A stretch of DNA of 35,381 nucleotides from Nitrososphaerales archaeon (GTDB taxonomy: Archaea > Thermoproteota > Nitrososphaeria > Nitrososphaerales > Gagatemarchaeaceae). The stretch spans positions 1 to 35,381 of the forward strand of contig JASHPA010000166.1 of the NCBI GenBank assembly GCA_030038365.1. Reading direction: 5' to 3'. The notes beneath the pieces were generated by a model, which was not told the DNA's origin, did not search any database, and was given only the letters and a program-made list of their open reading frames with translations. A program made the position numbers and the translations under genes. Within the stretch, counting starts at the first letter, position 1. The number at the start of each line of letters is the position of its first letter. Shown in pieces: positions 21,504 to 30,130 of the stretch.

Positions 21504-21711
21504 TCAATAAGTAAAAGTGGCCTGACCCACATTGGTTCGCCGGAAAACCAGCAGCTTTGGTTTCACAAGAACCGTCTGCAGATTCGCTTCGAGTTACGTG
21601 GACTGCCGAAGCGTCTGAAATAAGGCAACAGTGTATGAAGGGCCATAAATGAGGTAGCCCGGCCAGGAGTCGAACCTGGGTCAAGGGCTCCAAAGGCCCC
21701 TATGCTTGCCA

Positions 21712-22427
21712 CTACAGTCGACGGACACAAGTCCTCCACCGGGCTGCTTCCGGGCTGGAAGGCCCGCGCCTGTTTCGATTTAAAAAGCTAGTCAGTTGCT
21801 TCCTTTTCTTTCCTATCAATCCTATCTTCAAAGGGAAAGCCTGGCAATCGGCTGAACCGTAGAGACGCAGTCCATACATTGTCTTACCATCCTTCTGATA
21901 ATGATAGATTTTGGATCGGAGCCCGAACTGCTGGAGCACCAAGTAGAACTCCTGAATCAGGATCGGCTCGAGCATCTGAATCTGGAGTTTCACATTACTC
22001 GCAAAAGTTACGGACCCCTCAACCGAGAATAACCCTGCTATGAATCCGCGCAGGGTGTCCGAGTGTTGCTTCGCAAACTCCGGAATCCGAAGTCTACCCG
22101 TTTTCTTTCCGTTGGGATGCTCTCCTACATGTGTCATGAACTCATACACGATCCTGCTACAGTAGTAGGCTTCATACCATGTGGTCCTATCCCTAATCGT
22201 GGCCTTCACATTGAAGAGGGCAAGGGTCAGGCTCCTGTATGATTGTACAACTCCCAAGTCCCCTTCACAAAGTTCGATTCGCCATTTTCCAGTCCGTAAG
22301 GCAGCTCTTCTCTTTTGATGAGATTTCCGTCTCCATACAGCATGCCTGCCAGGGCTCCGAGATCGTACGAGTCATAGTCTGGCCAGAAAACAGTATGCGG
22401 AGATCCCTTCGCCATAGCCTCTGCCAC
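21712..22427 (-). pseudogene. LAGLIDADG homing endonuclease, two motifs in two frames (frameshift near 22230-22257)
   Basis: Motif 1 DLGALAGMLYGDGNL in ORF 22227..22427 and motif 2 LRGFIAGLFSVEGSV in ORF 21712..22257; stop TAG of the second ORF is formed by the tRNA 3' exon (T13-A14-G15). Confidence 0.75.
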
Positions 22428-26889: not shown

Positions 26890-29205
26890 ATGCAGGAAGG
26901 AAGCTCCAAGATCACCGTGGCGACAGGGAAGGCCGCGGAACTTTATCGACGCCTGCCCAACGGACGCGTCCAGTGTACAGCGTGCGCAAGAAGGTGCCAG
27001 ATAGGGGAAGGACAGGTGGGGCTCTGCGGCATCAGAGGGGTAGTGGGAGGGGAGCTGTACCTGCTCAATTACGGCAGGATAATCACGGGGCACATCGACC
27101 CGATAGAGAAGAAGCCGGTCACCCACTATCGGCCTGGGTCGAAGATATTTTCGATAGCTACCACGGGCTGCAGCTGGCTCTGTTCTTACTGTTTTTCGCC
27201 AGAGACGCCGGTGATTACAGACCATGGGATAAAGACAATCGATCAGGTTTTTTCCGCTTGTGATGTCGAAGGGGAGATTGGATATCCCAATCGGGATCTG
27301 CGTGTGCTCACCCACACAGGTAAGTTTAGGGAGGTTCTCAAAGTCTTTCGGCACCCCTACAGCGGAGGACTCAAAACAATTCGGCCCTTCTACTTACCCG
27401 AAATCAGATGCACTCCTAACCATGGCATTTTCATCTACGACGAAGCTAGCAAGACAGTCATGAAGAAGCGGGCTGAGGAGATTACATTGAAGGACCATCT
27501 AGCCATCCCAAAACAAAGTGATTCGATTGTATCGACTTCGGTAGACAGTCTGCAAGTAATCACTGCCGAGGTGCTCTCGCTAAGGCGATCGACTCGTCGT
27601 CCGTCTGTCTGGAAGGCGCGGGAGAAAGATGGTCGTGTCATTCTTGGCGGAGCGAAGGCGCCAGGAATTCCAAGAAAAATCTCAATCGATGAAGATTTCG
27701 CGGAACTGCTAGGAATCTACTGCGCCGAGGGATCCGCGACAAGACGAAAGGACAGGCCGAATAGCTGGGAGGTAACCTTCTCCTTTGGGCATCATGAGGA
27801 GGACCTCATAAATCGAACCGAAGAACTACTGAAGAAGGTTTTTGCGGCAAGAGTTCGCCGCGTCCGGCAAGGTCCAGAGCTTCGTCTAGAATGTGGTAGC
27901 GCTCCTCTTGGCATATTCCTGCACGGCACAGCAGGTCCTAACAAATACACCAAGAGGGTCCCCGATTTCCTGCTGCATAACGTTTCAAGCAAAATCTTGG
28001 CCCGCTTCTTGGAGGGTTACATCGCGGGTGACGGCTACATGACCGGGTATGCAAAATCTCGATGGATTGGCACGACGTCCGTTTCTAGAGAGCTTAGCCT
28101 AGGAGTTTGGTACGTGATGCTTCGTCTTCATCTATTGCCTAGGTTCTATGTCTCTCAGAACAAGGAAGACTATGTCATCCAGGGGCGAGCAGTGAATAGG
28201 CATCACGACTACATGACTCGTCTGCTCATTTCGCCCTCGCAGTCCTCGGGAGGCGAGCTATCATTTGCTGCCAGCAAAGTCAGGGACGTTGAGGGTTACT
28301 TGCTTGTTCCAATCAGGGCCATCTCTGATGAGGAATACAGTGGCCCGGTCTACAATATGGAAGTTGAGGGGGATCACTCATACTCAGCTAGCTTCGTGTC
28401 CGTAAGCAACTGTCAGAACCAGGACATCAGCCAGAGGAGGAAGGTGGAGGGCATCGAGATGGAGCCGGATGGCGTCGTCCGGCTGGCGGTCGAGAACGGA
28501 TGTGAAGGGATTGCGTACACCTACAACGAGCCTAGCATCTTCATGGAGTACGCGAGGGACGTCGGGAAGAAAGCGCATGAGAAGGGAATCTTCAATATAT
28601 TCGTCTCCAATGGTTTCGAGACTCCTGAATCGGCGGCCGTCATGGGGCAGTTCCTCGATTGCCTGACGGTCGACTTCAAGGGTAGCGGCGAGACGGGATT
28701 CGTGAAGAGGTACATCGGCATCCCGAGCGCGGAGCCGATATTCCAGACTCTACTCGAGGTCAAGAACAAGACGAAGATACACGTCGAGATCACCGACCTG
28801 ATAGTTCCAAAGCTGGGCGACGACCTGGAGAGCGCGCGGAAGCTCTCCAAGTGGGTGTACGAGAACCTCGGGCCTGACACTCCGACCCACTTCCTGCGCT
28901 TCCATCCGGACTACAAGATGATGGACGTGCCGGTGACACCCGTGGAGATGTTGGAGAGGCACGTCGAGGTGGCTAAGAAGGAGGGGCTGAGGTACGTCTA
29001 CATCGGGAACGTTCCAGGCCACCCCGCGGAGAACACGTACTGCCCAGGTTGCGGGAATGTCCTGATAGACAGGAACGGGTACGAGCTCGGCGCCTACAAC
29101 CTCGACGACCACAACAGGTGCAGGTTCTGCGGCTATCAGACGCCTATCGTCGGGCCGCTGAGCACCTGCGCCCGCGACGACCGGTTCAAGCTTGTAGTAG
29201 GTTGA
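26890..29205 (+). CDS. amrS: AmrS-like radical SAM enzyme (AmmeMemoRadiSam system) with in-frame intein
   Basis: Exteins: CTACARRCQIGEGQVGLCGIRG, ATTGCSWLCSY|CQNQDISQ, IDPIEKKPVTHYRPGSKIFS, YIGNVPGHPAENTYCPGCG; uninterrupted reading frame through the intein. Confidence 0.9.
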   Translation: MQEGSSKITVATGKAAELYRRLPNGRVQCTACARRCQIGEGQVGLCGIRGVVGGELYLLNYGRIITGHIDPIEKKPVTHYRPGSKIFSIATTGCSWLCSYCFSPETPVITDHGIKTIDQVFSACDVEGEIGYPNRDLRVLTHTGKFREVLKVFRHPYSGGLKTIRPFYLPEIRCTPNHGIFIYDEASKTVMKKRAEEITLKDHLAIPKQSDSIVSTSVDSLQVITAEVLSLRRSTRRPSVWKAREKDGRVILGGAKAPGIPRKISIDEDFAELLGIYCAEGSATRRKDRPNSWEVTFSFGHHEEDLINRTEELLKKVFAARVRRVRQGPELRLECGSAPLGIFLHGTAGPNKYTKRVPDFLLHNVSSKILARFLEGYIAGDGYMTGYAKSRWIGTTSVSRELSLGVWYVMLRLHLLPRFYVSQNKEDYVIQGRAVNRHHDYMTRLLISPSQSSGGELSFAASKVRDVEGYLLVPIRAISDEEYSGPVYNMEVEGDHSYSASFVSVSNCQNQDISQRRKVEGIEMEPDGVVRLAVENGCEGIAYTYNEPSIFMEYARDVGKKAHEKGIFNIFVSNGFETPESAAVMGQFLDCLTVDFKGSGETGFVKRYIGIPSAEPIFQTLLEVKNKTKIHVEITDLIVPKLGDDLESARKLSKWVYENLGPDTPTHFLRFHPDYKMMDVPVTPVEMLERHVEVAKKEGLRYVYIGNVPGHPAENTYCPGCGNVLIDRNGYELGAYNLDDHNRCRFCGYQTPIVGPLSTCARDDRFKLVVG
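27190..28410 (+). mobile_element. Intein (407 aa) with LAGLIDADG endonuclease domain inside AmrS
   Basis: Starts CFSPETPVITDHGIKTIDQVF; block B CTPNHGIFIY; LAGLIDADG motifs LLGIYCAEGSA and LEGYIAGDGYM; block F/G VYNMEVEGDHSYSASFVSVSN, then +1 Cys. Confidence 0.93.
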
Positions 29206-30130
29206 GCTGGTGTGGTTCCTTGAGGAACCTGTCGGCGTCGAGCGCGGCCTTGCATCCGTCGGCGGCCGCAGTCACGGCCTGCCTGTAGCGGAAGTCCCTC
29301 ACGTCGCCAGCGGCGAAGACACCGGGAATGTTCGTCTCCGTCTCGTTCTTGACGATAATGTAGCCGTTCTTGTCGAGGTCCAGCTGGCCCCTGAAGATCT
29401 CGGTGTTGGGGTCGTAGCCTATGGCCACGAACAGGCCGTCGAGCTGGATGTCTGTCGGGTCGCCCGTCTTTACGTTCGTGATCCTGACACCTTCGACCTT
29501 CTTCTCGCCAAGGACCTCGGTGACGGCGGAGTCGAAGAGGAACCGGATCTTGGGGTCGGCGAAGGCCTCCTTCTGGAGGATGTTGCTTGCACGTAGCGCA
29601 TCCCTCCTGTGTATCACGGTCACGCTGCTCGCGAGCTTCGAGAGATAGGTGGCCTCTTCCATGGCTGTGTCCCCGCCGCCGACGACGGCGAGCTTCTTCC
29701 CCCTGAAGAAGAACCCGTCGCATACGGCGCAGTTCGAGACGCCCCTCCCCATGAGCCTCATCTCGGACGGGAGGCCGAGCCTGCGCGGGTTCGCGCCGCT
29801 CGCGACTATCACGCTGAGAGCACGCCTCTCCTCGCTCGGCGTTTTGATCACAAAAGGATAGGTCCGGAGGTCGACCTCCGTCACGTCGTCCTGGATGAGG
29901 GTCGTTCCAACCCTCTCGGCCTGGGCGCGCATCTGCTCCATCAGGTCTGGTCCCTGGATCGCGTCCTTGAACCCAGGGTAGTTCTCGACGTCGCTCGTCA
30001 GCATGAGCTGCCCTCCGTACTTCGTGCCCATGTAGAGTACCGGCTCCAGCCCTGCCCTGGCGCAGTAAACGCCTGCGGTGTATCCGGCGGGTCCAGAGCC
30101 AATTATCACTACCTTGCTTACATTATCCAT
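29186..30130 (-). CDS. trxB: Thioredoxin reductase (NAD(P)/FAD-dependent)
   Basis: IIGSGPAGYTAGVYCARAGLEPVLYMG; CAVCDGFFFRGKKLAVVGGGDTAMEEA; GVFAAGDVRDFRYRQAVTAAADGCKAA. Confidence 0.93.
   Translation of the reverse strand: MDNVSKVVIIGSGPAGYTAGVYCARAGLEPVLYMGTKYGGQLMLTSDVENYPGFKDAIQGPDLMEQMRAQAERVGTTLIQDDVTEVDLRTYPFVIKTPSEERRALSVIVASGANPRRLGLPSEMRLMGRGVSNCAVCDGFFFRGKKLAVVGGGDTAMEEATYLSKLASSVTVIHRRDALRASNILQKEAFADPKIRFLFDSAVTEVLGEKKVEGVRITNVKTGDPTDIQLDGLFVAIGYDPNTEIFRGQLDLDKNGYIIVKNETETNIPGVFAAGDVRDFRYRQAVTAAADGCKAALDADRFLKEPHQLNLLQA

Follow-up and report, generated by a model that had tools for sequence, protein, structure and literature searches.

A full-length class 1 intein in the [4Fe-4S] motif of the radical SAM enzyme AmrS of a Nitrososphaerales archaeon

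The window analysed here, a stretch of 35,381 nucleotides from a Nitrososphaerales archaeon, carries a gene for the radical SAM enzyme AmrS that is interrupted just before its third cluster cysteine (position c3). The insert is very probably a full-length, still mobile class 1 intein that homes into the AmrS motif and is spliced to leave the active-site CX3CX2C. Its anatomy and junction, the distribution of the allele and the mobility of the intein are demonstrated by the sequences; the endonuclease target, splicing and cluster loading we infer from the intein family. A preliminary description of this DNA had located an intein in AmrS, at 27190-28410, exactly where the third cluster cysteine stands, and had suggested that splicing might depend on redox state or metal. 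The observation is confirmed, the coordinates being exact and profiles, fold and empty sites in agreement, and the interpretation is right in part.

The interrupted gene and its predicted splicing

The ORF at 26890-29205 (+) encodes 771 aa, in 771 codons free of stops and frameshifts. It matches the AmrS model TIGR04337 of NCBIfam (E 2.8e-94, 315.9 bits against a cut-off of 220) and the Pfam family Radical_SAM (E 2.2e-9), and also Intein_splicing (PF14890, 3.8e-11) and LAGLIDADG_3 (1.5e-9) in Pfam and intein_Nterm (TIGR01445, E 3.6e-6) in NCBIfam. Its features are:

26890-27189 (+): AmrS N-extein, 100 aa, with a putative start codon, ending in GC(-7)SWLC(-3)SY(-1), which holds ligand cysteines 1 and 2
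27190-28410 (+): full-length class 1 intein of the AmrS c3 site (407 aa), which includes a LAGLIDADG homing endonuclease
27190-27192 (+): Cys1, first splicing nucleophile, which restores CX3CX2C in the unspliced precursor; invariant in A1/A4
27412-27423 (+): block B, T-P-N-H, intein Thr75 to His78; neither of these two residues varies among 20 related inteins
27706-27732 (+): LAGLIDADG motif 1, LLGIYCAEG, with acidic Glu180, assigned by sequence conservation
28006-28041 (+): LAGLIDADG motif 2, FLEGYIAGDGYM, with acidic Asp281, assigned by LAGLIDADG_3 and conservation
28405-28410 (+): intein end, Ser-Asn, with a penultimate Ser where the usual His is absent
28411-29202 (+): AmrS C-extein, 264 aa, whose first residue is Cys+1, the third [4Fe-4S] ligand
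29203-29205 (+): AmrS stop codon

The intein spans aa 101-507 of the ORF, begins with CFSPET, ends with FVSVSN and is followed by CQNQDISQ, so that the junction reads GCSWLCSY/CF...VSN/CQN. Because 32 intein-free AmrS genes of relatives are continuous across the motif, this junction is fixed to a single residue. Cys1, T75-P-N-H78, Asn407 and Cys+1 are all present, as in class 1 (HINT) inteins, and both LAGLIDADG motifs (LLGIYCAEG and FLEGYIAGDGY) have their acidic residues, as in LAGLIDADG homing endonucleases; the Pfam LAGLIDADG_3 match falls on the motif-2 side. Among archaeal relatives Cys1, block B, Glu180, Asp281, the block F region and Asn407 are kept, Glu180 and Asp281 being invariant in seven archaeal c3 inteins and conserved to at least 90% in 20 related inteins. 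An AF2 model of the intein (pLDDT 88, pTM 0.88) resembles in Foldseek the full-length inteins TliVMA (7qsu/7qss, 4e-22) and PI-PkoII (2cw7, 2e-20). The joint evidence of profile, fold and junction for an intein is far beyond chance.

Joining of the exteins gives ATTG-C-SWL-C-SY-C-QNQDISQ, in which CX3CX2C is present and Cys+1 is the third cluster ligand, as had been proposed. The accompanying claim that the cluster site is interrupted in the unspliced protein stands as regards the position of the insert, at the third ligand, but not as regards the motif: Cys1 is itself a cysteine, so the precursor keeps a complete linear CX3CX2C (C-SWL-C-SY-C1, formed by Cys-7, Cys-3 and Cys1) through the intein's own nucleophile.

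The interrupted gene is the sole AmrS of the window's genome, which like the other genomes is a MAG (88% complete, 5% contamination), and the partners AmrA (AMMECR1) and Memo are both found there; with the only AmrS interrupted and its partners retained, selection should demand splicing. By analogy with other class 1 inteins, Cys1 would attack the carbonyl of Tyr-1, the acyl group would then pass to Cys+1, and Asn407 would cyclise as the exteins are ligated to CSWLCSYCQN, which should be able to bind a [4Fe-4S] cluster. The penultimate His is usual in class 1 inteins and not obligatory, others without it being known; the Ser found here predicts a slow last splicing step. This Ser may also be counted in favour of a decaying, non-splicing pseudogene, an explanation that is scarcely credible given an uninterrupted frame and a full set of catalytic residues, all retained in orthologous inteins only 47-59% identical. 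A thioredoxin reductase-like gene with the motif CAVCDG, at 29186-30130 (-), adjoins AmrS in convergent orientation; it could have a bearing on redox release, or be a coincidence.

Distribution and mobility of two inteins in one motif

The preliminary description had proposed a survey of the insertion site in related archaea. The AmrS junction was readable in 49 genes of related Nitrososphaerota (the near relatives named here are MAGs of this phylum): c3 is occupied in 9 (two of these carriers being known only by C-terminal ends at contig ends), a second intein lies before the second ligand cysteine (c2) in 8, and 32 sites are empty. The N-extein of the window shares 73-80% aa identity with those of other c3 carriers. 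When 300 genomes of this phylum were drawn, long frames occurred, among the matches listed, in the window's genome (G000), G057, G134 and G327, the last two being c2 carriers. One genome-contig scan added AmrS genes with a c3 intein from Chloroflexota, Acidobacteriota, Rokubacteria, Latescibacterota, Omnitrophota and one Micrarchaeota MAG; the hosts L132 and L138 were verified as AmrS. None of the libraries searched gave an earlier annotation of an intein at the AmrS site, and a literature search returned no paper linking inteins and AmmeMemoRadiSam. To this extent the view of AmrS as an uncommon intein host holds; the allele, however, spans several archaeal and bacterial phyla.

The AmrS c3 inteins, archaeal and bacterial, form a single clade (99/98). 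Their nearest outsider is L149 (99/98), an intein that an AhbD/MoaA-like radical SAM protein carries at this same cysteine, the third of the motif. Between G019 and G027 the intein differs at 10 of 1197 nt and the exteins at 72 of 1071; for third positions the figures are 3/399 and 45/357 (p 2e-12). Such sequences indicate that the c3 intein is mobile and has moved recently in this pair. In G030 and G031, exteins that are 90-92% identical surround inteins only 50% identical, so the histories of intein and host differ. GC3 of the intein is below that of its own exteins in 7/7 cases (55 against 71 and 83% in the window). The LAGLIDADG endonuclease most likely targets the conserved AmrS DNA for CX3CX2C; intein-free alleles would be cut there and the intein copied in through recombination. 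A phage or plasmid origin was considered for both inteins and rejected: matches to the c3 intein reached just 20-28% and included no AmrS-type relative, and the search for c2 gave nothing useful.

The c2 intein (GCNWL/CHP...VHN/C-x-Y-C) is unrelated to that of c3; it combines HINT blocks with a DUF559/MTES_1575-type nuclease and has no LAGLIDADG. None of the 17 Nitrososphaerota carriers holds both inteins in one gene, a sample too small for a test of exclusion. Both are present in two Euryarchaeota MAGs (L184:2101-4368 and L197:2155-4356), separated by C-R-Y and reduced to mini-inteins without endonuclease; joint occupancy was seen only where both endonucleases have been lost. The middle cysteine has two roles here: to the first intein it is the +1 nucleophile, and to the second it is Cys-3. 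In a narrow search of the literature, no precedent was found for adjacent inteins with a tripeptide spacer. With active endonucleases targeting sites 9 bp apart, each insertion should ruin the target of the other. In another c2-bearing AmrS (L038, genome G025) the C-extein has an in-frame TAG (...NGYDTP*TVK...), attributable to recoding, decay or an error of sequencing. Two unrelated inteins make the AmrS Fe-S motif of eight residues a double hotspot, and its repeated invasion at two neighbouring positions makes Fe-S cysteines look like recurrent landing sites. The intein of the window is of a known type, a class 1 LAGLIDADG intein seated at a ligand cysteine of a radical SAM enzyme, and gains interest from this double-site context.

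Inteins at other iron-sulfur cysteines and a possible splicing gate

By our own reading the window's genome has about 17 inteins, with MCM (4), PolB (3+1), RadA, RtcB, HerA, Mrp, eIF2-gamma, RpsL and others as hosts; its intein-bearing contigs include C29, C60, C72, C87, C133, C139, C150, C190 and C197. Two of its inteins, in verified hosts, interrupt NuoB (L115, contig C126; LETAC/C...VVHN/CSVE) and NuoI (L117, contig C169; DYGR/C...VHN/CVFCGLC), and in other genomes inteins lie before cysteines of NifU/IscU, IspG, PorB and RLI (L170, L171, L179, L204). From knowledge of the protein families, we take all these insertion cysteines to be ligands of Fe-S clusters. Since an AmrS intein served as the query, the sample is biased and no enrichment is claimed. 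The intein tree pairs NuoI with RLI (99/98) and IscU with PorB (100/99), as if inteins hopped from host to host where short motifs are alike; the NuoB intein and the first of the PolB inteins in the window's genome (L116, contig C29) are sisters (100/100), probably the trace of a host jump within the lineage. Elsewhere in the window, at 21653-21727 and 21712-22257 (-), an LAGLIDADG_3 ORF (181 aa) reaches into the 5' end of tRNA-Gln(TTG), and is possibly a tRNA-associated homing endonuclease. For comparison with the roughly 17 inteins of this genome, a survey of 2023 lists, for 18 genomes of Thaumarchaeota, one gene with a single intein (PMC10643990 Table 1).

Two accounts of why the intein sits at a cluster cysteine have been weighed. 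The one we consider somewhat better than evenly probable is that the intein is purely selfish and splices fast and constitutively, its site reflecting conserved DNA and the need for Cys+1 alone. Its sporadic presence and recent homing fit this account, as do the sharing of one motif by c2 and c3 inteins with different nuclease families and the many conserved sites of the window's genome that hold inteins; it leaves unexplained the loss of the penultimate His at c3 in two groups that are separate in the best tree. The other account, which we hold only tentatively, is a conditional switch, in which a Cys-3/Cys1 disulfide, or a metal or [4Fe-4S] cluster on Cys-7, Cys-3 and Cys1, would mask Cys1. 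AmrS would then be held as an inactive precursor until conditions fit the oxygen-sensitive enzyme, and the endonuclease might still act.

The preliminary suggestion of redox or metal dependence gains weight from the MoaA intein of Pyrococcus abyssi, since the CX3CX2C spacing forces the same Cys pair on AmrS (GCSWLC(-3)SY/C1), the residue pair of the MoaA/Tes redox trap. A disulfide between Cys-3 and Cys1 keeps the MoaA intein from splicing (Callahan et al., 2011, according to the reviews PMC3922620 and PMC10663303), and oxidation could trap the AmrS precursor likewise. The Tes intein of Thermococcaceae, present in 9/38 genomes, occupies the same ligand, and with MoaA showing the same spacing redox-gated splicing has a precedent. 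Nearly all other collected inteins have the penultimate His, which is mostly lost in both radical SAM c3 lineages (7/7 Ser in Tes; mostly Ser, Lys, Gly or Ala in AmrS); its loss would curb cleavage at the C-terminal junction ahead of time, as long as step 1 is held back. Against the switch, Cys-3 is imposed by the CX3CX2C spacing and needs no selection for sensing, and occupancy is patchy, with many close relatives lacking the intein, as for a selfish element. The His is also kept by RLI and PorB inteins with Cys-3 and by three bacterial AmrS inteins; RLI and PorB are the exceptions for which a general rule that Cys-3 means no penultimate His was discarded.

It is conceivable, if doubtful, that Fe-S cysteine motifs are a common landing zone between unrelated proteins and that the radical SAM motif adds a built-in redox or metal gate; the extreme form would be the mini-inteins flanking C-R-Y, where two junctions must be ligated before cluster binding. 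With the present results AmrS joins the hosts of inteins, and the allele concerned is spread across archaea and several bacterial phyla. Natural constructs are available with c3 alone, c2 alone, tandem mini-inteins or no intein, and permit side-by-side comparison of inteins as redox sensors or as merely selfish elements. If gating is true, it would offer a general route to post-translational control over radical SAM enzymes.

Comparison with known systems

Among the closest known counterparts is the Tes intein of Thermococcaceae (NF045703), inserted just before the third cluster cysteine (CNLSCWY/C). It shares with AmrS c3 a radical SAM host, Cys-3 and Cys1, the third-cysteine site and the Ser-Asn end; it differs in its host, Tes instead of AmrS, and in belonging to another clade of the best tree. 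P. abyssi MoaA and Thermococcaceae Tes are probably one host family, and the disulfide is the one described for MoaA; in AmrS c3 the same Cys pair is a candidate for such a bond. A jump of the Tes ("MoaA") intein between radical SAM genes, with direct descent of the AmrS intein from it, is improbable. The position in the motif and the Ser-Asn end are in common, and in NCBIfam the AmrS ORF has its next-best match in the Tes model that contains an intein (E 4.8e-20); yet NifU, NuoI and PorB inteins match this model too, so the match is generic and was rejected as specific. In the tree, Tes inteins join those of PurL (98/95), and AmrS joins L149 (99/98); a joint AmrS and Tes clade was not rejected by the AU test (p 0.11 and 0.08).

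Another example is the family of Rv2578c intein-containing radical SAM proteins (NF038136), whose profile can be aligned to the AmrS intein of c2, starting near its Cys1; the host is a radical SAM protein like AmrS, and the intein is akin to c2, not to the c3 intein of the window. The inteins of Mycobacterium tuberculosis SufB and mycobacterial DnaB have been discussed as cases of regulated or stress-responsive conditional splicing (PMC8891592, PMC6195587). SufB is an Fe-S assembly protein, but the hosts and sites of both inteins are unrelated to AmrS. Finally, the MCM-a and MCM-d inteins of haloarchaea are neighbours in one gene whose homing interferes (PMC10643990); in contrast to these, c2 and c3 of AmrS lie just 9 bp apart and have nucleases of different families.
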